From positions 91,637,830 to 91,701,829 of the forward strand of contig CM049307.1 in NCBI GenBank assembly GCA_026874595.1: a stretch of DNA of 64,000 bases, given 5' to 3'. Source of the stretch: Sipunculus nudus (taxonomy: Eukaryota; Annelida; Sipuncula; Golfingiida; Sipunculidae). The notes beneath the pieces were generated by a model that was not told the origin of the DNA, ran no database searches, and saw nothing but the letters and a program-made list of their open reading frames with translations. The translations under genes and the position numbers were made by a program. Positions within the stretch are counted from its first letter, which is position 1; each line of letters begins with the position of its first letter. Below are positions 12,201 to 50,200 of the stretch, piece after piece.

Positions 12201-14110
12201 TCCAATATCAAGGTATACACTGTGTAATTTGTATTTCATGACTTGATCTATGGTGCTACTAAAACCAGTTATTACCCTGGTTTTATATATGTTATTAAAA
12301 AAAATTACAGGATTCTAAAAAATAATACTGCATCTGCATTTGAAAAGCAAATGTTTTCATACCTAAATGCAAAAAAAATGCAGAGTTATTTATATCTGTT
12401 CATTTAAAAGTAAATGCTACATTTTTCAAATGCAGATGCAATTGAATCCAAGCCTGGTTCATATTTATGAAAATGTTATATTTGATTCAGATTGTACGGA
12501 AGCGTATTGCTGCCACCTGGTAAAAGAAAAATAAATTATTTATCTCGTACGTACGACATACTATCTCGTACGTACGACATATTATCTCATACGTACGACA
12601 TACTATCCCGTACGTACGACATATTATCTAGTACGTACGACATACTATCTCGTACGTACGACATATTATCTCGTACGTACGACATATTATCTCGTACGTA
12701 CGACATATTATCTCGTACGTACGACATATTATCTCGTACGTACGACATATTATCTCGTACGTACGACATATTATCTGGTACGTACGACATAATAAATCTT
12801 ACGGATCTGATTCATAAACTAGACAACATGCAAACAGATATATGTATAAGCAATATGTATATGTTAAATAATGTATGTTTTCACATTTACTATATATACA
12901 ACATCTCCACCTCCTTGCAAACCGCTGGACCAACGTTGAAACCAACACACACACTCACATATGTCTATATATTTACAGTATATATTTAAATGCTAATCGA
13001 TTCACATTTTTGTGTGTGTCCAGGTTTCTGTAAAATTTCAAGCAAGCGAAATATACATCAAATCGTTGTCTGACAGTAATACAGAACTCTCATTTTAAGA
13101 CAGATGATTGAATAATGTTAGCAGTATATGATGTTATAATAGTGAGCCTGTCATAATGTTAATAAGAAACAATTTTCATAATTTTGATTATAAAAAAAAT
13201 TTTGCCTTTGCCAAATTGAAACTACCTTTTTGAGAAGGAAGGGTTCGAACAAGAGGTACAGCTCCCAAAGAGCCTGATTGAAAGTAATTGAGAACGGATA
13301 TTTGTGGGGCAGGTTTATAATATTCTAAACTGGTCTTTCTTATAACGCATCATGTAGTTGATCTTTTTGACTATTTAATGCATATACAGCCATTGATATG
13401 ATTGGTAGGTAGCTGAACAGACAATAATCCATTTAATGGGGTATGTATAATTTTTATTTTGAACCAAATTATAAAAAAAAAATATATTAAAAACTATCAC
13501 TCATGGAAGTGCGATTAATCTGTGACAGAAGAATACGAAATTCTAAAATAAGTCTTGACCTCATATGTCAGGCTGAAGTGGTGGTAAAATCTACATCTCA
13601 GATTTGTCTCATTTGCGGATTGGTACAAGATATTGTATTTGGCACATGTACGTGTAACTCGCCCTTCTGTAAACGGCATGAAGTTCAACTTATTGGATCA
13701 AGCACTTCGTTTCATAATATATGAATCATGAACCTCTCCTAATGGGCATCTCTGTATTACAGAACCTCTATTAGTGTCTGTTAAGTGTTTACATAAGATC
13801 TTACAGAGATGCCCGTAAGGAGAGATTCCTGATTCATACATTATAAAACGAAGTGCCGTTTACAGTAGGGCGAGTGACACTGTGCATTATGTCATAAATC
13901 TTGTATTACTCTCTGTATTACAGACACCTATATATTGACACTCAAGGTTCATATTCTTGTATAATAATATGTGTTTTGTCTCACATTATTAACTCATTTT
14001 GGCTGAATACGAAAGTTGTTCAGCAAATCCATGTCGACACGGGCTTAATATCACCTGTTTACCGGTTTTATACGTTATTATGGTTCTGTGTGTGAGTAAA
14101 CACAGTGCAC

Positions 14111-14204
<94 letters not shown>

Positions 14205-17200
14205 ATGAAAAGACTGAGAGCCTTGAAATATAATACCAGCGCTGTGTTAGAATGGCTCAGCCGGTGGATACTATTAATGTCATTAGTAATACATGTAACG
14301 TCTATCAGAGGTTCTTGTTTGACCAGATAAGATATCCTGACATATACAAGAGACACAATTCGTTATTGTTACTTGCGGGGGAGTCCTATGCTTATATGGC
14401 AAATTTGAAATGGAAATAAAATTTAGAAACGAGACCAATCGTTTAGAAACGAGACAAACACAGCGCTCACGCCACCTGGTGGTGGTACAACATAAATTCA
14501 CAATTCAAGGGTTTTCAAGCTTTTCTAGGTGTTTCTCTTTTTATGTTTCTTTTATTTTTTTTATAATTGTCGCAAATGCGCGACCAAGATCTTCCCTCTG
14601 GTCACCGGGCCTTCTTATGTAAACACGTAACAGACACTTATACAGGTTCTGTAATACAGAGATGCCCATTAGGAGAGGTTCATGATTCATATTTAATTAA
14701 ACGAAGTGCTTGATCTCATAAGTTGAACTTCATGCCGTTTAAAAAAGGGCGAGTTACACGTACATGTACGACATACATTATCTTTTATCAATCCGCAAAT
14801 AAGACAAATCTGAGGTGTAGATTTTACCAACACTTCAGCCTGACATATGCGGTTAAGACTTATTTTTTAATTTCGTATTCCTCTGTCACAGATTAATCGC
14901 ACGCCCATGAGTGATAGTTTTTAATATATTTTTATTTATAATTTAGTTCAAAATAAAAATTATACGTACCCCATTAAATGTATTGTTTTCTATTCAGCTA
15001 CCCAACAATCATATCAATGGCTGTATATGCATTAAATAGTTTAAAAGGTCAACTACACGATGTGTTATGTATAAATCTAGTTCTTAGAAAGATCAGTTTA
15101 GAATATTAGAAACCTGCCGTACAAATGATCATTCTCAGTTACTTAAAATCAGGCTATTTGGGAGCTGTACCTCTTGTCCGAACCCTTCTTTAAAAAAAAG
15201 TAGTATCAGTTTTGCAAAGGCAAGATTTTGTTCTTATTAACATTATGACAGGCTCACTATTATACTCTCATATACTGTTAAAAACATTATTTAATCACCT
15301 GTTGTAAAATGAATGCTTTATATGATTGTCAGACAACGATTTGATGTATATTTCGCTTGCTTGAAATATTACAGAAACCTGGACACACACAAAAATGTGA
15401 ATTGAATAGCATTTAAATATATACTATAAATAAATAGATATATGTGATTGTGTGTGTTGCTTTCAATGGTGGTCCAAGGAGGTGGAGATGTTGAATATAG
15501 TTAATGTGAAAACATACATTATTTAACATATACATATTGCTTAAACATATATCTGTTGGCATGTTATCTAGTCTATGAATCAAATCCGTGAGATTTATTA
15601 TGTCGTACGTACGAGATAGTATGTCGTACGTACGAGATAATATGTCGTACGTACGAGATAATATGTCGTACGTACGATATACTATGTCGTACGTACGAGA
15701 TAGTATGTCGTACGTACGAGATAATATGTCGTACGTACGAGATAGTATGTCGTACGTACGATATACTATGTCGTACGTACGATATACTATGTCGTACGTA
15801 CGAGATACTATGTCGTACGTACGATATAGTATGTCGTACGTACGAGATAATATGTCGTACGTACGAGATAGTATGTCGTACGTACGAGATACTATGTCGT
15901 ACGTACGAGAAAGTATGTCATACGTACGAGATAAATAATTTATTTTTCTTTTACCAGGTGGCAGCAATACGCTTCCGTAAGATTGCTCCATACATTTTAT
16001 CAATTTTAACTCAACCATAAAAATAATTCTGAGTATCCACTAGCCCAAGATACAAATTATAACAATTTTACAATAGCAGGGAATATTGCTAGTACCAATA
16101 TTCTTGTGACATGTGCCAGGAGTTAATAACAAGTGACCCATGGGTCATGACACTCAGCTGACTGACATGTTGATAATATGTCCTTGCACAGACAACTAAT
16201 TAAGATAGGTGACATCATTGTTGATGCATATTAGCTTAAGTTCATCAAGACCCATAAGCACAACAAATCTGATGACAGTCCAACCAACCTTTCATGAGGA
16301 ATCTGGCAATTTGTGTGTATTTTGCATTATTTCTGGGGTGCTCAAACATACCCCAAAACTCTGAGAATATAGGTTAACTGTGACCCAATTTCAGGTTTCT
16401 GGGGAGAACTTTTGAGGAACTCTCAGGATGTCAAGTTAGAAGATTCTGGGCCACATGGTTATGATTTGTGCCCTACTTTGGCATAAAATATTCAATTATT
16501 CTGAGGGGTGCTTATAAGCCCCATAGCTCAGAAAATATGGGTAACAGAGACTTTAATTCATGTTTCCAAGGAGACTTTTACAGATCTCCCTGGATGTCAA
16601 GTTTGAAGATTCTAGGACCAATGGTTACAATTTAAGCCCAGTTAAGGGATGACCGCATCTTTGAAGGTCTCATAAATAGAGAAAAAAAATTGTTAAAATT
16701 TAAAAAAAATTTAGGGGTGCCACCAATCCCCAAGAACTGATGAAATGATGAATATTCATGCAAAGAATCAGGGTGATCAATGCAATAGTTGTTTAGATAC
16801 TGGAGCATTGTATCAAATTTTTAGTTATTCTGGTTGGTACTCCTAAGCCCCATAGCTTGGAGGATATGGGTAACAAAGACCTAATTTCAGGTTTCAATTG
16901 AGTTTTTTATTGACCTCCCAGGATGTCAAGAAAGAAGATTCCATTTCAAATAGTTATGATTTGTGCCCTGTTAACAGACGAACACATCTTTGAAGGTATC
17001 AAAAATAAAGATAAAAATGCATAAAAATTCAAAGAAGTCCAGGTGGCACCACCAGTCTGCAGGAACTGATGAAACACTCCATGATGCGTATGCATGCAAA
17101 GAATAATGCAGATCAATGCAATAGTTGTTCAGATACCACAGCTTTTGTATCAAATTTTTAGTTATTCTGGGGGGTATTCTGAGCTCCATAGCTCGGACAA

Positions 17201-35200: not shown

Positions 35201-38200
35201 ATTATGAATCAACAGCTTACAAGACTCTGTCAAATGGTGGATGAACCTATAATATATTAATACCAATAGTTGAATTACAAAAGGAAAGGGAGTAGTATGT
35301 ATGTGTATTTGTTGTACTAACCATATATTGTGATGATAGTTGTGCGAGAAATGTTCACAGTATAGCAGTGACTGGTCTGTAGCTGTGTTGTGTAAGTAGT
35401 TGTAGACACTGCTGATCAATGCGTGAGAGTAGTGCTACATTAAACTTCTAATAAAAATGGTTTTATAGATATATAAAATTTGAGGTTTGAATCAATGACA
35501 TTCAAATTGTGCAGATATAGAAACAGTTTAAAATAATTAAATATCTGGAAACTTTGTGGCAATTTAATGAAGTTACCTAAAGATGTAATTAATTACATGG
35601 TAAGTTTTCTTAATTAATTTATTGTGAGATGTGAATATATTGTAAAATTAATCCAGCAGTGAGTAGATAAACAAACATGGGAAGTTTAATAAATTAACAG
35701 AATATTTAAATACATGACAGAGCACTTCATGTTCAGCTTTATTTTGAAAGATGACCCTATTTTGTCTATGTCACAGCCTCAAACCAGTTGCAATTCTTGG
35801 GAGGTGAGGTGTTGAATACTATTAAGCCAATTGGACTTATATTTGTTTAACTTGTTGCCTGATTTACTTGATTAATGTTTGGTTTTCTGTAAACCTATCT
35901 GTGTAAGGGAAAAACAGCCATTAACATTAGGTGGTCCCTGATTAAAAGCATTGCTTAAACCAGGTACCACTGTACTTCAGCTTACCAAACCATATATGGT
36001 AGCAGAACCACTACTGGATGGGGTCAGGCCTGTTAACATGTTGATGAGTGTAGTCTTGCCTGCCCCATTATGACCAAGCAGTGCAGTAATCTGTCCTTCA
36101 TACATATCCAGAGATATACCTTAAATAAAGAGAGGAGAATTTCAATACAATGACATATTAAGCCAATGCTCAAAGTTGGACCATATTTTGCTCAAAATGG
36201 CAATTATTACATTGCATCATTGTACCATTGTGAATGTTCATGTTCTGTAAAGTATTTCATTTTGAAGTAAAATATTCTGATACCTTGGAACACTTTTTTT
36301 CTGAATATACAGTTGGTTTACATTTAGTTTTACTCAATTACTTCAATCAAAATCTAAAGCAAGGAAGAATAAAAAATGGTGATGGTGGAACACTCTGTTT
36401 CTGCATACAAGTTTTCTGTCATCTGAATGTATTAAATCTTCATAATTGACAAAACAATGGATGCGATGTCGGCATCTTAAGAAGTTAAGGAAGGTTACGA
36501 TTGTTAAACTACCGTAAAACTCGCTTATAAGTCAGAGGGGAGGTATCCAATAGACCTTTTCCACGAGCATGCGCATTGAGCTTAACTGCTGTCTGGGTCC
36601 GATTTTAAGCATTACAAATTTTGTCAAATAAGCCAGAGGTTCAGATCAGTGGCTCATTGTTAGAGAGAAGGTAGAATATTTACATTTATTATTATTTGAA
36701 ATATATTGAATATGCTCTTTTAACATTACAAATGACCTGAACACTCAGTGTCATTCACCAGCACCTAAGAAGGTTTTAGAAAGGTGTTTTAAAGATGCCC
36801 TTACCATTGACTGCAGTGACTGTCTTCTCTTTGCTGCTATACACCTTTTTTATATTAAACATCCTGTAATGAAATGTAAACCATATATAGTGAATCAGTA
36901 TCGAGTTTTAAGGTGTGACAATATTCCACTGAGCTAATACAAAAAAAAGTTCTAAGCTGTGATAGTCGCAGTCAGTTTAATGTGGCCTAAATATCTGTTA
37001 ACACAAAGATCAAGCATAGGTAAACAAACTGAAATATAATCATATTACATAATATTATACCCACAAAAATGAGCCTTGCTGTTGCTGAGTGCTTAAAAAT
37101 AGTGAACTTTAAAAAAATACCTTTTTTAATATATTAAAATACCACAAGAAATGAATATTAAAGTACTTGGGATGCTTCATAAATGAATGCCTATATGATT
37201 TTGCTGTTCTCTTTCTACAGCCAGGTGCCATCAAAGATCAGCTACATATAACCTCTTTACACTAATGAATATAAAATACAAAAGTGGGTAGAAATATAGA
37301 AACATTCTGCAATGTCTATCTGTTTTTGGTAGGATAAACTTTATCAAACAGAAAGCATTTTAAGGATATAAAGAATAAGAATATAAAACTAATTGCACCA
37401 CATTTCTGCTGGTAAAAATACAAGGAGAGCCTCTATACTGCATCTAATTTTAAAATATTTTTGTTTCCATATCCTGTGGGACACTGTACATTCTACCTGA
37501 GAACATTTCTACCGGCCATATCCTGTGGGACACTGTACATTCTACCTGAGAACATTTCTACCGGCCATATCCTGTGGGACACTGTACATCCTACCTGAGA
37601 ACATTTCTACCGGCCATATCCTGTGGGACACTGTACATCCTACCTGAGAACATTTCTACCGGCCATATCCTGTGGGACACTGTACATCCTACCTGAGAAC
37701 ATTTCTACCAGCCATATCCTGTGGGACACTGTACATCCTACCTGAGAACATTTCTACCGGCCATATCCTGTGGGACACTGTACATCCTACCTGAGAACAT
37801 TTCTACTGGCCATATCCTGTGGGACACTGTACATCCTACCTGAGAACATTTCTACCGGCCATATCCTGTGGGACACTGTACATCCTACCTGAGAACATTT
37901 CTACCGGCCATATCCTGTGGGACACTGTACATTCTACCTGAGAACATTTCTAACGGCCATATCCTGTGGGACACTGTACATCCTACCTGAGAACATTTCT
38001 ACCGGCCATATCCTGTGGGACACTGTACATCCTACCTGAGAACATTTCTACAAGCCATATCCTGGTTGACACTGTACATCCTACCTGAGAACATTTCTAC
38101 CAGCCATATCCTGGTGGACACTGTACATCCTACCTGAGAACATTTCTACCGGCCATATCCTGTGGGACACTGTACATCCTACCTGAGAACATTTCTACTG

Positions 38201-41200
38201 GCCATATCCTGTGGGCCACTGTACATCCTACCTGAGAACATTTCTACCGGCCATATCCTGTGGGACACTGTACATCCTACCTGAGAACATTTCTACCGGC
38301 CATATCCTGTGGGACACTGTACATTCTACCTGAGAACATTTCTAACGGCCATATCCTGTGGGACACTGTACATCCTACCTGAGAACATTTCTACCGGCCA
38401 TATCCTGAGGGACACTGTACATCCTACCTGAGAACATTTCTACCGGCCATATCCTGTGGGAAACTGTACATCCTACCTGAGAACATTTCTACCGGCCATA
38501 TCCTGTGGGACACTGTATGTACATCCTATCTGAGAACATTTCTACCGGCCATATCCTGTGGGACACTGTACATCCTACCTGAGAACATTTCTACCGGCCA
38601 TATCCTGTGGGACACTGTACATCCTACCTGAGAACATTTCTACTGGCCATATCCTGTGGGACACTGTACATCCTACCTGAGAACATTTCTACTGGCCATA
38701 TCCTGTGGGACACTGTACATCCTACCTGAGAACATTTCTACCGGCCATATCCTGTGGGACACTGTACATCCTACCTGAGAACATTTCTACCGGCCATATC
38801 CTGTGGGACAGCCTCTATGCTGTCTGTGCCAGGATTCATGTTGACGCTCTGTTCGTCTCCAGTGTTTCGTAGTAACTGCTGAATCTCCTCAGCTGATCGC
38901 ACCCTCGGGCACCAATAAGATGGCATAAGGAAAAAGTAGAAAGGCCGCCGAACCCCATACTCAGCTGAGGAAGCAAACAAGAAAATATAACCAGGGTTAA
39001 AGCCATGCGGGTAGACGCCAGTTGGGGGTAGACAAGATGGGGTTCTGCCTGCCACCACAAAGCTGACATTTGCAACCCTTCAACCGGCACAAAAGATCTC
39101 AAAAACTAACTAGCAGCAATTAAAGTTTGTTTTTTTTATTACCCCAAACTGCAAATCGAGAGCCAAAATAATCAATAAAACATAGTAATAACACATAGCA
39201 CAATGCAAAGATAAAGCTAACATATTCCAAAACCAAGTGGCCCCTGCCTTGAACACCTCTGCTTGCTTGGACAATGTCCATAAATTTAGCTGGCACTTAA
39301 ATTGTTTAGCTTTAACGTTGAATATAACAATAACATATATGTTATAATAATGAGACTACCTCTTTCCAATTAAACTATGATCAATTGACCAAGGAATTTG
39401 CTAATGATGCGTTTGCTGCCTAAATAAAAGTTATGGTTATTTAAATCTATTAAATTATTCTTGTTCTGCATAATACTTTGATTTACACACAATGTGATCA
39501 TTTACATGTTTCATATGGTAATTTATAATTATTTACCTATTATTTTACTTAAACCAGGTATGTATTTACACTTTTGTCAGGTCCAACACCCTTCTCAGAT
39601 CATTGAACCTGTTTTCCAAAATCACTGGACCTGTGGTCCAAAATCACTGGAACCATGGTCCAAAATCACTGGACCATTGGTCCAAAATCACTAGACCCAT
39701 GGTTAAAAATAACTGAATCTGTGGTCCAAAGAGGTGCTGTAACTCCAATATTGGCAAATATCATATTTTACTGAAAATGCTCTATATGTCATGTATATTT
39801 AACATACCATAACATATGTTACCTTAACATATGTAAATAGCTCCCCTTTAAGGAACATTTCATATTAAAGGATACAAAAGGTTTCAACTTGATATGACCT
39901 GCAATCCTGGTAAGTCATGGGCAGTCATGAAATAAAATCATAAAGGTGACCTGCTGAGAGTCAGAAACCTCCAAAAAAGACTAGTCACGTGATTGTCTTT
40001 GATGATCTTATGCCTACCATAAAACAAGCTGCCACAAGTCAAAACAAGTCCCATGACAAGTTACATGATGTAACTGGTGGTCCTGTGGTGTTGGTGTCAT
40101 CTTCTTACCCTGACAGGGTTGCAACTGTTTTTATGCTAAAATATGATAGACAGGCACCACGACCACCTGTTTTTGTGACTAGTCACAGGTGCTTGTGTTC
40201 ATAGCTCAGGTGTGGCTGGGGCTTAAGTGCTGATGATTAACAAGATATTTACCTGTAGTGCCTCACTTACTTGGAACAACATTATCCAGGTAGACAGCAA
40301 TAAGGCCGTACAGGACAAAGTCCACCAGCATCATGATCATTGGGACATAAACAGGAAGTTGGCCGACTGTCATGTTGCTGAATGTCAACCCACCTCTTCC
40401 CACATCCAGGAAAATTCCCTGAAATATATACAGCAGGACCTTGAATCATAGAAACCTGTCTACCAGAGACACCTCAGATTTTACAGATATATCTCTACTG
40501 TGGACATCTCTCATTACATACGTTTCTCTATTACAGATACCCTCTCTATTGTGGAACTCTCTATTACAGACACCATCTTTTTATTCACAGATACATCTCT
40601 ATTGTGTACACCTCTCATTACAGATAATTCTCTATTACAGACACCTCAATTTAGATACATCTTTACTGTGGATATCTCTCATTACAGATAATACTCTATT
40701 ACAAAAACATCTCTGTTGTGGACCCCTCTCATTACAGACACTTCTCTTTTACAGACATACCTTTACTGTGAACATCTGTCTATAACGGGCAGCTCTCTAT
40801 TACATATACCCCCTCTATTGTGAACATCTCTCTATAACAGGCACCTCAGTATAACAGAAACATCTCTATTGGGGACATCTCTCAATACAGTCACCTCTCT
40901 ATTACAGATTTACCTTTACTGTGGACTTCTTTCTATAACAGGCACCTCTCTATTACAGATACATCTCTACTGTGGACATCTCTCATAACAGATACCTCTC
41001 TATTACAGAAACATCTCTACTGTGGACATCTTTCTATAACAGGCACCTTTCTATTACAGATACATCTCAACTGTGGACATCTTTCTATAACAGGCACCTC
41101 TCTATTACAGATACATCTCTACTGTGGACATCTTTCTATAACAAAAACCTCTCTATTACAGATACATCTCTACTGTGGACATCTTACTATAACAGGCACC

Positions 41201-44200
41201 TCTCTATTACAGATACATCTCTACTGTGGACATCTTTCTATAACAGGCACCTCTCTATTACAGATACATCTCTTCTGTGGATAACTTTCTATAACAGGCA
41301 CCTCTCTATTACAGATACATCTCTACTGTGGACATCTTTCTATAACAGGCACCTCTCTATTACAGATACATCTCTACTGTTGACATCTTTCTATAACAAA
41401 AACCTCTCTATTACAGATACATCTCAATTGTGGACATCTTTCTATAACAGGCACCTCTCTATTACAGATACATCACTACTGTTGACATCTTTCTATAACA
41501 GGCACCTCTCTATTACAGATACATCTCTACTGTGGACATCTTTCTATAACAGGCACCTCTCTATTACAGATACATCTCTACTGTGGACATCTTTCTATAA
41601 CAGGCACCTCTCTATTACAGATACATCTCTACTGTGGACATCTTTCTATAACAGGCACCTCTCTATTACAGATACATCTCTACTGTGGACATCTTTCTAT
41701 AACAGGCACCTCTCTATTACAGATACATCTCTACTGTGGACATCTTTCTATAACAGGCACCTCTCTATTACAGATACATCTCAACTGTGGACATCTTTCT
41801 ATAACAGGCACCTCTCTATTACAGATACATCTCTACTGTGGACATCTTACTATAACAGGCACCTCTCTATTACAGATACATCTCTACTGTGGACATCTTT
41901 CTATAACAGGCACCTCTCTATTACAGATACATCTCAATTGTGGACATCTTTCTATAACAGGCACCTCTCTATTACAGATACATCTCTACTGTGGACATCT
42001 TTCTATAACAGGCACCTCTCTATTACAGATACATCTCTACTGTGGACATCTTTCTATAACAGGCACCTCTCTATTACAGATACATCTCTACTGTGGACAT
42101 CTTTCTATAACAGGCACCTCTCTATTACAGATACATCTCTACTGTGGACATCTTTCTATAACAGGCACCTCTCTATTACAGATACATCTCAACTGTGGAC
42201 ATCTTTCTATAAAAGGCACCTCTCTATTACAGATACATCTCTACTGTTGACATCTTTCTATAACAAAAACCTCTCTATTACAGATACATCTCAATTGTGG
42301 ACATCTTTCTATAACAGGCACCTCTCTATTACAGATACATCACTACTGTTGACATCTTTCTATAACAGGCACCTCTCTATTACAGATACATCTCTACTGT
42401 TGACATCTTTCTATAACAAAAACCTCTCTATTACAGATACATCTCTACTGTTGACATCTTTCTATAACAGGCACCTCTCTATTACAGATACATCACTACT
42501 GTGGACATCTTTCTATAACAGGCACCTCTCTATTACAGATACATCTCTACTGTTGACATCTTTCTATAACAAAAACCTCTCTATTACAGATACATCTCAA
42601 TTGTGGACATCTTTCTATAACAGGCACCTCTCTATTACAGATACATCACTACTGTTGACATCTTTCTATAACAGGCACCTCTCTATTACAGATACATCTC
42701 TACTGTGGACATCTTTCTATAACAGGCACCTCTCTATTACAGATACATCTCTACTGTGGACATCTTTCTATAACAGGCACCTCTCTATTACAGATACATC
42801 TCTACTGTGGACATCTTTCTATAACAGGCACCTCTCTATTACAGATACATCTCAACTGTGGACATCTTTCTATAACAGGCACCTCTCTATTACAGATACA
42901 TCTCTACTGTGGACATCTTACTATAACAGGCACCTCTCTATTACAGATACATCTCTACTGTTGACATCTTTCTATAACAAAAACCTCTCTATTACAGATA
43001 CATCTCTACTGTGGACATCTTACTATAACAGGCACCTCTCTATTACAGATACATCTCTACTGTGGACATCTTACTATAACAGGCACCTCTCTATTACAGA
43101 TACATCTCTACTGTGGACATCTTTCTATAACAAAAACCTCTCTATTACAGATACATCTCTACTGTGGACATCTTACTATAACAGGCACCTCTCTATTACA
43201 GATACATCTCTACTGTGGACATCTTTCTATAACAGGCACCTCTCTATTACAGATACATCTCTTCTGTGGATAACTTTCTATAACAGGCACCTCTCTATTA
43301 CAGATACATCACTACTGTGGACATCTTTCTATAACAGGCACCTCTCTATTACAGATACATCTCTACTGTGGACATCTTTCTATAACAAAAACCTCTCTAT
43401 TACAGATACATCTCTACTGTGGACATCTTACTATAACAGGCACCTCTCTATTACAGATACATCTCTACTGTGGACATCTTTCTATAACAGGCACCTCTCT
43501 ATTACAGATACATCTCTACTGTGGACATCTTTCTATAACAGGCACCTCTCTATTACAGATACATCTCTACTGTGGACATCTTTCTATAACAAAAACCTCT
43601 CTATTACAGATACATCTCTACTGTGGACATCTTACTATAACAGGCACCTCTCTATTACAGATACATCTCTACTGTGGACATCTTACTATAACAGGCACCT
43701 CTCTATTACAGATACATCTCTACTGTTGACATCTTTCTATAACAAAAACCTCTCTATTACAGATACATCTCTACTGTGGACATCTTACTATAACAGGCAC
43801 CTCTCTATTACAGATACATCTCTACTGTGGACATCTTTCTATAACAGGCACCTCTCTATTACAGATACATCTCTACTGTTGACATCTTTCTATAACAAAA
43901 ACCTCTCTATTACAGATACATCTCAATTGTGGACATCTTTCTATAACAGGCACCTCTCTATTACAGATACATCACTACTGTTGACATCTTTCTATAACAG
44001 GCACCTCTCTATTACAGATACATCTCTACTGTGGACATCTTTCTATAACAGGCACCTCTCTATTACAGATACATCTCTACTGTGGACATCTTTCTATAAC
44101 AGGCACCTCTCTATTACAGATACATCTCTACTGTGGACATCTTACTATAACAGGCACCTCTCTATTACAGATACATCTCTACTGTTGACATCTTTCTATA

Positions 44201-47200
44201 ACAAAGACCTCTCTATTACAGATACATCTTTACTGTGGACATCTTTCTATAAAAGGCACCTCTCTATTACAGATACATCTCTACTGTGGACATCTTTCTA
44301 TAACAGGCACCTCTCTATTACAGATACATCTCTACTATTGACATCTTTCTATAACAGGTACCTCTCTATTACAGATACATCTCTACTGTTGACATCTTTC
44401 TATAACAAAGACCTCTCTATTACAGATACATCTCTACTGTGGACATCTTTCTGTAACAAAGACCTCTCTATTACAGATACATCTCTACTGTTGACATCTT
44501 TCTATAACAAAGACCTCTCTATTACAGATACATCTCTACTGTGGACATCTTTCTATAACAGGCACCTCTCTATTACAGATACATCTCTACTGTTGACATC
44601 TTTCTATAACAAAGACCTCTCTATTACAGATACATCTCAACTGTGGACATCTTTTAATAACTGGCACCTCTCTATTACAGATACATCTCTACTGTTGACA
44701 TATTTCTATAACAGGCACCTCTCTATTACAGATACATCTCTACTGTGGACATCTTTCTATAACAGGCACCTCTCCATTACAGATACATCTCTACTGTGGA
44801 CATCTTTCTATAACAGGCACCTCTTTATTACAGATACATCTCTACTGTGGACATCTTCCTATAACAGGCACCTCTCTATTACAGATACATCTCTACTGTG
44901 GACATCTTTCTATAACAAAGACCTCTCTATTACAGATACATCTCTACTGTGGACATCTTTCTGTAACAAAGACCTCTCTATTACAGATACATCTCTACTG
45001 TGGACATCTTTCTATAACAAAGACCTCTCTATTACAGATACATCTCTACTGTGGACATCTTTCTATAACAGGCACCTCTCTATTACAGATACATCTCTAC
45101 TGTGGACATCTTTCTATAACAGGCACCTCTCTATTACAGATACATCTCTACTGTGGACATCTTTCTATAACAGGCACCTCTCTATTACAGATACATCTCT
45201 ACTGTGGACATCTTTCTATAACAGGCACCTCGCTATTACAGATACATCTCTACTGTGGACATCTTTCTATAACAGGCACCTCTCTATTACAGATACATCT
45301 CTACTGTGGACATCTTTCTATAACAGGCACCTCTCTATTACAGATACATCTCTACTGTGGACATCTTACTATAACAGGCACCTCTCTATTACAGATACAT
45401 CTCTACTGTTGACATCTTTCTATAACAAAGACCTCTCTATTACAGATACATCTCTACTGTTGACATCTTTCTATAACAAAGACCTCTCTATTACAAATAC
45501 ATCTCTACTGTTGACATCTTTCTATAACAAAGACCTCTCTATTACAGATACATCTCTACTGTGGACATCTTACTATAACAGGCACCTCTCTATTACAGAT
45601 ACATCTCTACTGTTGACATCTTTCTATAACAAAAACCTCTCTATTACAGATACATCTCAACTGTGGACATCTTACTATAACAGGCACCTCTCTATTACAG
45701 ATACATCTCTACTGTGGACATCTTACTATAACAGGCACCTCTCTATTACAGATACATCTCTACTGTTGACATCTTTCTATAACAAAAACCTCTCTATTAC
45801 AGATACATCTCAACTGTGGACATCTTACTATAACAGGCACCTCTCTATTACAGATACATCTCTACTGTGGACATCTTACTATAACAGGCACCTCTCTATT
45901 ACAGATACATCTCTACTGTTGACATCTTTCTATAACAAAAACCTCTCTATTACAGATGCATCTCAACTGTGGACATCTTTCTATAACAGGCACCTCTCTA
46001 TTACAGATACATCACTACTGTTGACATCTTTCTATAACAGGCACCTCTCTATTACAGATACATCTCTACTGTGGACATCTTTCTATAACAGGCACCTCTC
46101 TATTACAGATACATCTCTACTGTTGACATCTTTCTATAACAAAAACCTCTCTATTACAGATACATCTCAACTGTGGACATCTTTCTATAACAGGCACCTC
46201 TCTATTACAGATACATCACTACTGTTGACATCTTTCTATAACAGGCACCTCTCTATTACAGATACATCTCTACTGTGGACATCTTTCTATAACAGGCACC
46301 TCTCTATTACAGATACATCTCTACTGTGGACATCTTTCTATAACAGGCACCTCTCTATTACAGATAAATCTCTACTGTGGACATCTTACTATAACAGGCA
46401 CCTCTCTATTACAGATACATCCCTACTGTTGACATCTTTCTATAACAAAGACCTCTCTATTACAGATACATCTTTACTGTGGACATCTTTCTATAAAAGG
46501 CACCTCTCTATTACAGATACATCTCTACTGTGGACATCTTTCTATAACAGGCACCTCTCTATTACAGATACATCTCTACTGTTGACATCTTTCTATAACA
46601 GGTACCTCTCTATTACAGATACATCTCTACTGTTGACATCTTTCTATAACAAAGACCTCTCTATTACAGATACATCTCTACTTTGGACATCTTTCTGTAA
46701 CAAAGATCTCTCTATTACAGATACATCTCTACTGTTGACATCTTTCTATAACAAAGACCTCTCTATTACAGATACATCTCTACTGTGGACATCTTTCTAT
46801 AACAAAGACCTCTCTATTACAGATACATCTCTACTGTTGACATCTTTCTATAACAAAGACCTCTCTATTACAGATACATCTCTACTGTGGACATCTTCCT
46901 ATAACAGGCACCTCTCTATTACAGATACATCTCTACTGTGGACATCTTTCTATATCAGGCACCTCTCTATTACAGATACATCTCAACTGTGGACATCTTT
47001 CTATAACAGGCACCTCTCTATTACAGATACATCTCTACTGTGGACATCTTACTATTACAGGCACCTCTCTATTACAGCTACATCTCTACTATGGACATCT
47101 TTCTATTACTGACACCTCTCTATTACAGATACATCTCTACTTTGGACATCTTACTATAACAGGCACCTCTCTATTACAGATAAATCTCTACTGTGGACAT

Positions 47201-50200
47201 CTTACTATAACAGGCACCTCTCTATTACAGATACATCCCTACTGTTGACATCTTTCTATAACAAAGACCTCTCTATTACAGATACATCTTTACTGTGGAC
47301 ATCTTTCTATAAAAGGCACCTCTCTATTACAGATACATCTCTACTGTGGACATCTTTCTATAACAGGCACCTCTCTATTACAGATACATCTCTACTGTTG
47401 ACATCTTTCTATAACAGGTACCTCTCTATTACAGATACATCTCTACTGTTGACATCTTTCTATAACAAAGACCTCTCTATTACAGATACATCTCTACTTT
47501 GGACATCTTTCTGTAACAAAGATCTCTCTATTACAGATACATCTCTACTGTTGACATCTTTCTATAACAAAGACCTCTCTATTACAGATACATCTCTACT
47601 GTGGACATCTTTCTATAACAAAGACCTCTCTATTACAGATACATCTCTACTGTTGACATCTTTCTATAACAAAGACCTCTCTATTACAGATACATCTCTA
47701 CTGTGGACATCTTCCTATAACAGGCACCTCTCTATTACAGATACATCTCTACTGTGGACATCTTTCTATATCAGGCACCTCTCTATTACAGATACATCTC
47801 TACTGTGGACATCTTTCTATAACAGGCACCTCTCTATTACAGATACATCTCTACTGTGGACATCTTACTATTACAGGCACCTCTCTATTACAGCTACATC
47901 TCTACTATGGACATCTTTCTATTACTGACACCTCTCTATTACAGATACATCTCTACTTTGGACATCTTACTATAACAGGCACCTTTCTATTACAGATACA
48001 TCTCTACTGTGGACATCTTTCTATAACAGGCACCTCTCTATTACAGATACATCTCTACTGTGGACATCTTTCTATAACAGGCACCTCGCTATTACAGATA
48101 CATCTCTACTGTGGACATCTTTCTATAACAGGCACCTCTCTATTACAGATACATCTCTACTGTGGACATCTTTCTATAACAGGCACCTCTCTATTACAGA
48201 TACATCTCTACTGTGGACATCTTTCTATAACAGGCACCTCTCTATTACAGATACATCTCTACTGTGGACATCTTACTTTAACAGGCACCTCTCTATTACA
48301 GCTACATCTCTACTGTGGACATCTTTCTATAACAGGCACCTCGCTATTACAGATACATCTCTACTGTGGACATCTTTCTATAACAGGCACCTCTCTATTA
48401 CAGATACATCTCTACTGTGGACATCTTTCTATAACAGGCACCTCTCTATTACAGATACATCTCTACTATGGACGACTTTCTATTACTGACACCTCTCTAT
48501 TACAGATACCTTCTCTATTGTTGACATCTCTTCATAACAGACACCTACGTATTACAGATACATCTCTACTTTGGACACTTCACATTACAGATACCTCTTT
48601 TTAAAATATACCCTCTTTACTGTGGACATCTGTCATAACAGAGGTCTCTCAATAACAGATATCCTCTCTTTTTTGGACATCTCTCTATTACAGACACTTC
48701 AGTAATACAGATAGATCTCCATTGTGGCAACCTCTCATTGCAGATAAATCTCTATTACAAACCTATCTAGTGTGGTAACTGTGTTTGCTGATCACCACAT
48801 TATATCTCAGGAAATTACCAGGCACCTGCCATCTACAGGAACAATGTTGCTGGATGGTATTCCTAGCGTATGCCAAACAGGACTTCCTTTTTACAAATGG
48901 TGTGTAAGACATCAGTTGCATATCTTGTGACCTCTGACCTCATTTAAATTTGCATGGTTGCTGTGGAATATCAGGCTTAGGGATGATTATACTGATTAAT
49001 ATTATTTATAATATATAGGTTTTATCAAAAGCCATCATATTCCTGATTAAGTTATCAGTCACACCACACAGTCCCACAGTGAACTCTGACCTTACTAAAT
49101 ATGCGTGGGTTTTGTCCATAATCGATCTTGGGTGAGATAATCTATTTGTAAGTAGTTATGGTGAGTTTCCATCAAAGCCCCAGTAAGTTATCACAGCGAC
49201 ACTAAAGGTTAACGGACAGAACATGGGCATCATAATACGCACAACTATGGCATCCATTAACAGACCCACTGGGGGCTGCAGAGCTCCACCATTTCACCTG
49301 ATCCAATGCTAAATAAGCTTTATAAGACCATCTGTCTTATAAGAACACCTGTCTATTAAGACCACCCTTGAGTGAACCAAAACTGGATAAAAATTGGATA
49401 TAAATGTCTCATGAGATGTCCTGTGATTTAAGACCAATTTTGGGCAGTCTGACAGACTAGTGACAGTTGGTCTTATAACACGTTTCACTGAATTACCTGA
49501 TCCATTGCTAAGGCCAGAGCCACTGGTGATAACAGACACAATGCGATTTGTCCTCCCACAGGGATTGAAGAGACAGGACCATCAGCTGTGTAAGTTGTCC
49601 GAGTCAGACTGACCACTAAGTAGAGCAAGCTGAAGACGAGGGTCGCAAATCCTGCGAGGGCGCCGGCAGTTTCCGCTTTGCTGAAGAACGGAGTCATCAT
49701 GAATGCCATGTTGATGATCGTCAGGCCATACAGGAACAGAATCAGATAAAAAATGAAGACGTTGCTGTTACTGAACAGACGGGATGCCCAGGCTATTATG
49801 ACCACTATTACGGTCACCACCGCTATCACAACAGCATAGATGATACCCCAGGACAACCTACAACAAAATAAAAAAAAAAACATTTAAAGTTTTATAAAAG
49901 CTTCCCTTTCTTTGAAAAATTAAGTTAAAATATCCCAACATTTTTACAACCATTAACTGTATACCCTTATATTCGACATGTCATTTGTGACATCCAAGGT
50001 TTGGCTGTATGCAAAATGGCAGCCCCAATGAGCAGTTTCCATATTTTTACATCAGCTACACTTTCTTTGATGAATTAGAAGATAAAGAAAGGTTAAAATA
50101 TTTATTTAAATGTTTAAAACCATGGTAACCAGAGAAACTAGAAATTTCTGGCACTAGTGAAGCCAGGTACCTATACTCCATGATTTGTGTTCTCATTATG

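Follow-up and report, generated by a model that had tools for sequence, protein, structure and literature searches.

The window analysed here, a 64,000-nt stretch of the Sipunculus nudus assembly, carries on its minus strand an ABCA-type transporter gene whose best match among solved relatives is ABCA3. The product joined around exon 7 matches ABCA3 at 3.6e-61, followed by ABCA4, ABCA1 and ABCA7, and contains both the ABCA-type membrane segment and the NBD1 that mark the ABCA subfamily; ABC_tran (8.3e-18) is the only one of the three Pfam families listed for it to lie above the cut-off. Past the end of the window, three NBD-exon matches (tblastn, E 4.7e-4 to 1.6e-6) continue in order on the same strand, so the gene is apparently not truncated; these weaker matches are as would be expected for NBD2. 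Searches with Rfam at gathering scores and with ARAGORN returned no matches.

Exons were placed by inspection, further exons on the left side of the window being placed roughly. The label "exon 7" follows the numbering of an earlier, sequence-only reading of this DNA, and five coding exons upstream of it were found by eye. The features around exon 7 are as follows.

59034-58945, minus strand: exon with the start codon, by inspection
57165-56778, minus strand: exon 2, by inspection
51893-51667, minus strand: exon, by inspection
49857-49497, minus strand: exon, by inspection
40418-40271, minus strand: exon, by inspection
38964-38775, minus strand: exon 7, 190 nt, its last 35 nt belonging to repeat unit 1, by acceptor and ABCA homology
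36864-38774, minus strand: intron 7, 1911 nt long, roughly two thirds of which is array, by the exon joins
38809-38761, minus strand: repeat unit 1 (made up of the exon end, 38809-38775, and the first 14 nt of intron 7, 38774-38761), equal to the array consensus
37483-38760, minus strand: units 2-27, 26 further 49-bp units, by unit-by-unit alignment
37467-37482, minus strand: 16-nt partial unit ending the array, by unit-by-unit alignment
36863-36805, minus strand: exon 8, 59 nt, 19 residues, entered in phase 2 and left in phase 1, by frame
36119-35986, minus strand: exon 9, encoding the NBD1 Walker A motif GHNGAGKTT, by inspection
34900-34748, minus strand: exon, by inspection
28932-28794, minus strand: exon, by inspection

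Exon 7 starts at the acceptor CTTCCTCAG|CTGAG, ends in CAG|GTAGGA and lies between introns of 1306 and 1911 nt, with ABCA homology in frame across both joins. Exon 8, which the sequence-only reading did not describe, carries the reading frame on from exon 7 into the exon with Walker A. When exon 7 (ending at 38775), exon 8 and exon 9 are joined, their translation can be aligned with ABCA3 across the junction, with a gap of 2 residues, and this gives independent support for the exon 7 end that had been proposed from the letters alone. No second exon 7 was found when ten exon proteins were searched by tblastn (E 1e-3) against the window and 100 kb on either side.

The array that fills most of intron 7 is reported by TRF as a 49-bp unit in 27.3 copies (37467-38810, 96% matches, score 2491). 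Alignment unit by unit bears out the proposal that each copy consists of 35 nt of exon 7 followed by 14 nt of intron, and yields 27 complete units, one with the authentic donor and 26 extra, followed by a stub of 16 nt. The earlier estimate of about 27 consecutive donors is borne out. GT is kept in 26 of the 27, the exception being unit 6, which has AT in its place and a 4-nt insertion that lengthens it to 53 nt, and the donor nonamer CAGGTAGGA is identical in 22, with G>A at +5 in the other four GT-bearing units. That +5 variant is common to units 26 and 27 and occurs also in units 10 and 18. A block pattern at a lag of eight units (p 0.011 for this lag alone, 0.18 over all lags tried) is suggestive only of an 8-unit block duplication inside the array. 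A possible diverged copy of exon 7 past the array (~37390-37460) was discarded, since its score of 28 was reached by 78 of 1000 shuffles and by 15 of 200 control segments.

Several observations bear on where the array came from. Unit 1 equals the consensus and its exonic part encodes sequence that aligns to ABCA3, which identifies exon 7 as the source. A pattern search of the window's own assembly (1,426,538,692 bases in 153 contigs) with a 25-nt unit core, allowing up to 2 mismatches, gave 27 matches, all 27 inside the array, and the reversed-pattern control gave none; a DNA search of the assembly with the unit gave 12 matches among the best candidates scored, again all inside the array. The array therefore arose from exon 7, and it occupies a single location in the assembly as searched. 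Exact unit-core patterns had no matches in the viral_contigs and genome_contigs collections, from which the genome containing the window may be missing. Tandem arrays are error-prone in assembly, and the array could be an artefact or have the wrong copy number, its presence in the assembly from which the window itself was taken being no independent confirmation; however, 14 of the 27 units carry variants, in several combinations, there are no Ns in the window or in the 264-kb stretch formed by the window and its neighbouring sequence, and the contig is 98 Mb long. We regard this explanation as highly improbable, and the boundary-spanning anatomy would in any case survive an error in copy number.

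How good are the extra donors? Against the consensus MAG|GTRAGT, CAGGTAGGA agrees at 7 of 9 positions, within the range of 6-9 obtained for 10 donors of the gene, itself among them. As 21 of the 26 extra copies match the real site over nine bases, they are equally good decoys over those bases. Substitutions affect 5 of 243 cells in the donor nonamer and 18 of 1080 elsewhere in the unit (Fisher p 0.59), a comparison of low power in which units share history and cells are not independent; variation at the donor is comparable to that at the other positions, with no sign that decoys have been either kept or purged. One suggestion of the earlier reading was that the decoys soak up U1 snRNP, and the nonamer is indeed kept in 22 of 27 units. 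The numbers make such titration implausible, however: a cell holds about a million copies of U1, against which 26 extra sites per transcript are negligible, and we give the idea next to no credence.

The predicted consequences of donor choice differ markedly in whether the reading frame survives. The ABCA frame stays intact when exon 8 is joined to donor copy 1. As had been pointed out from the sequence, an in-frame stop (AGG TAG) lies immediately behind the authentic exon end, and the extensions to donor copies 2, 3 and 27 (three of the 26 were modelled) all run into it at once; because the same first stop follows directly, every extension past the authentic donor would truncate the protein before NBD1. 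Skipping of exon 8 likewise leads to a stop. The sequence-only reading had also proposed that GTCCCACAG|GATATGG acts as an acceptor for mini-exons. An interval of 26 nt from that point to the donor is indeed present, but such mini-exons would be unlikely, because both possible array acceptors are pyrimidine-poor (8 of 17 positions from -20 to -4, against 9-16 in the 10 gene acceptors scored) and because chains of one to six mini-exons all reach a stop, at the same codon.

The sole other productive route apparent would be a step between units at AG|GT, leaving the mRNA unchanged. In each unit TTCTCAG|GTAGGA sets an acceptor AG directly against a donor GT, and intron 7 might be removed as a recursive-splicing ladder in 49-nt steps or multiples of them, without trace in the mRNA. 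Such a ladder would fit with the adjoining AG|GT in the same 26 of 27 units that keep GT, and with an exon 7-8 junction that would stay as it is; on the other hand, the polypyrimidine tract is weak, with the same 8 of 17 positions, and an intron of 49 nt, as each one-unit step would require, is very short by animal standards. We consider recursive removal very unlikely.

Which donor is used can be approached through the lengths of the introns on either side of exon 7. In minigenes with competing donors of equal strength, as described in PMC9225289, the donor nearest the upstream acceptor is preferred under exon definition, whereas under intron definition the rule is reversed and the downstream donor is favoured; earlier work cited there places the switch between the two modes at flanking introns of 200-250 nt. 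With flanking introns of 1306 and 1911 nt, exon definition is expected at exon 7 and, together with the published preference for the upstream donor, it leads us to infer that copy 1 is used and that the remainder is intron. Of the three mechanisms offered by the sequence-only reading (titration of U1, use of one copy, tuning of splicing by the array), use of one copy thus fits best. Intron-defined splicing would predict use of the last copies, which would count against this reading.

We think it probable that the array is a minisatellite of the type called "mirages" in lancelets, one that leaves splicing largely undisturbed through exon definition. A 49-bp segment across the exon 7 5' splice site would first have been duplicated in tandem; slippage or unequal exchange would afterwards have multiplied the copies and made them alike. 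Unit 1 would remain the exon end and donor while the other 26 units leave with the intron, recognition across exon 7 favouring the upstream one of several equal donors. Any leakage to copy 2 or beyond, to mini-exons or to exon-8 skipping would end in a stop before NBD1, and mis-splicing would lower output and not create a new protein.

Arrays of tandem exon-boundary copies are already in print, and the idea is not new, although no publication on the array in this gene was among the matches listed in a search of open-licence literature. Lancelet mirages are described as tandem copies of exon-intron boundaries, many of them bearing AG/GT signals, in Adh3, the globins BflGb6 and BflGb9, PGBD5 and TnC, varying in length and reportedly leaving regular splicing undisturbed (PMC3087553, PMC3902484), and their repeated AG/GT signals could, according to the former account, serve as cryptic sites (PMC3087553). 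The units given there are 10-72 bp long at Adh3 and ~150-160 bp in the globins, where BflGb6 has 3-6 copies and BflGb9 a single duplicate (PMC3087553, PMC3902484). The present array shares with these the minisatellite-like boundary copies within an ordinary gene, its unit spanning an exon-intron boundary (35+14 nt) and its copies carrying splice signals (26 of 27); it differs from the mirages in those accounts in lying at a donor boundary, in an ABCA gene, and in having 27 near-identical 49-bp units. The human CBS VNTR, c.1444_1467+7(16_21), has a 31-bp unit in 16-21 copies that varies in people (PMC2630376). Its geometry is the same, the notation implying 24 nt of exon end and 7 nt of intron, although the gene is another and the unit is shorter (31 versus 49 bp).

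The closest relative by gene family is the VNTR in intron 18 of human ABCA7, described as a 25-bp unit in ~12 to 427 copies that begins with the exon-18 donor (PMC5954066). Here, too, an array in an ABCA gene includes the donor of an exon and lies beside NBD1-coding exons. There are differences: the ABCA7 unit starts at GT and no exonic part is described for it in that account, whereas 35 nt of the unit here are exonic, and human ABCA7 exon 19 is in frame (44 aa), whereas exon 8 here is out of frame. According to the same report, skipping of exon 19 rises with array length (3.2 times between extreme samples, 4.1-fold between two alleles of one patient), expression is 33% lower with the longest than with the shortest array combination, and splicing from the donor of the second unit keeps one unit in the mRNA, with a frameshift and a stop, at a level of ~2% that is independent of length (PMC5954066). 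The array in intron 7 thus belongs to a known kind, represented by the lancelet mirages, CBS and ABCA7, and is in the same gene family as one of these precedents.

Could the array be a dosage rheostat, its length setting the share of non-productive splicing (one-unit retention and exon-8 skipping) so that copy-number alleles tune output? Human ABCA7, where lower expression and more frequent skipping of the following exon accompany a longer array (PMC5954066), would be a precedent, and the alternatives modelled at this gene are all non-productive. However, one-unit retention in ABCA7 is unchanged with array length, the low-powered comparison above detected no constraint on donors among the units, and the RNA fold predicted for a 217-nt stretch with units 1-4 and the end of the exon is unremarkable (z 0.87), giving no support to a special RNA structure there. 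A rheostat of this kind, the tuning that the sequence-only reading had raised, seems to us unlikely. By analogy with the lengthening of the ABCA7 array, the near-neutrality that we favour at the present array length may nevertheless fail.

A second boundary of the gene is also duplicated. The exon-2 acceptor region (57209-57115, minus strand) has a diverged copy at 57334-57244 on the same strand (82.5% over 80 nt, E 1e-18). In this copy the acceptor is intact, with pyrimidines at 13 of 17 positions, and together with a newly formed donor, TTG|GTAAGA, it encloses a 42-nt open in-frame stretch at 57294-57253 (14 residues), a candidate new exon. The arrangement resembles that described for potato RdRp, in which a tandem duplication across an intron-exon boundary supplied new splice sites and a new intron was detected (PMC4974935); the exon-2 duplicate is nearer to that case than exon 7, where we propose no new intron. 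A stretch at 58217-58097 (minus strand) scores 54 against the exon-2 acceptor region, with 46 for the best of 307 controls and 1 of 500 shuffles as high, and may be a weaker, older copy. Another candidate (57640-57480) reached a score of 36, which does not set it apart from the controls.

We also asked how often exon ends have a local duplicate, defined as a match on the same strand, 20-1500 nt away, with an E-value no higher than 1e-9 when the 264-kb stretch is searched. The 32 exon-end queries from 16 exons, some placed by eye, with the start codon as the 5' end of the first exon and an arbitrary donor end for exon 15, gave 2 (the exon-7 donor and the exon-2 acceptor), compared with 351 of 3000 random 120-nt windows (11.7%), which included exons and arrays; 120 of the 351 had at least 20 copies. 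On this comparison we reject the idea that exon ends are preferred targets: this is a duplication-rich stretch in which boundaries are struck along with everything else.

Local duplication is abundant in the 264-kb region. A 51-bp minisatellite of ~158 copies (40450-48727, over 8 kb) occupies most of one intron, ends 32 nt short of the acceptor of the exon at 40418-40271 and has a 2057-codon stop-free frame on the plus strand. Two 21-bp arrays (12540-12791 and 15599-15933) lie ~3 kb apart; their consensus units look reverse-complementary and both contain the palindrome TCGTACGTACGA.

The array in intron 7 is a further case beside the boundary-spanning minisatellites of lancelets and human, and it also bears on how general the ABCA7-type length effect is. 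It is quite improbable, in our view, that donor-carrying minisatellites beside NBD1 arose independently in human ABCA7 and in this gene and that both act as length-dependent brakes on transporter output, every modelled alternative here ending in a stop. The array is a good test case and not an element of a new type: with the same donor nonamer occurring 22 times beside one exon, it amounts to a natural test of the choice among equal 5' splice sites, in which use of an upstream copy, as under exon definition, can be set against use of a downstream copy, as under intron definition.
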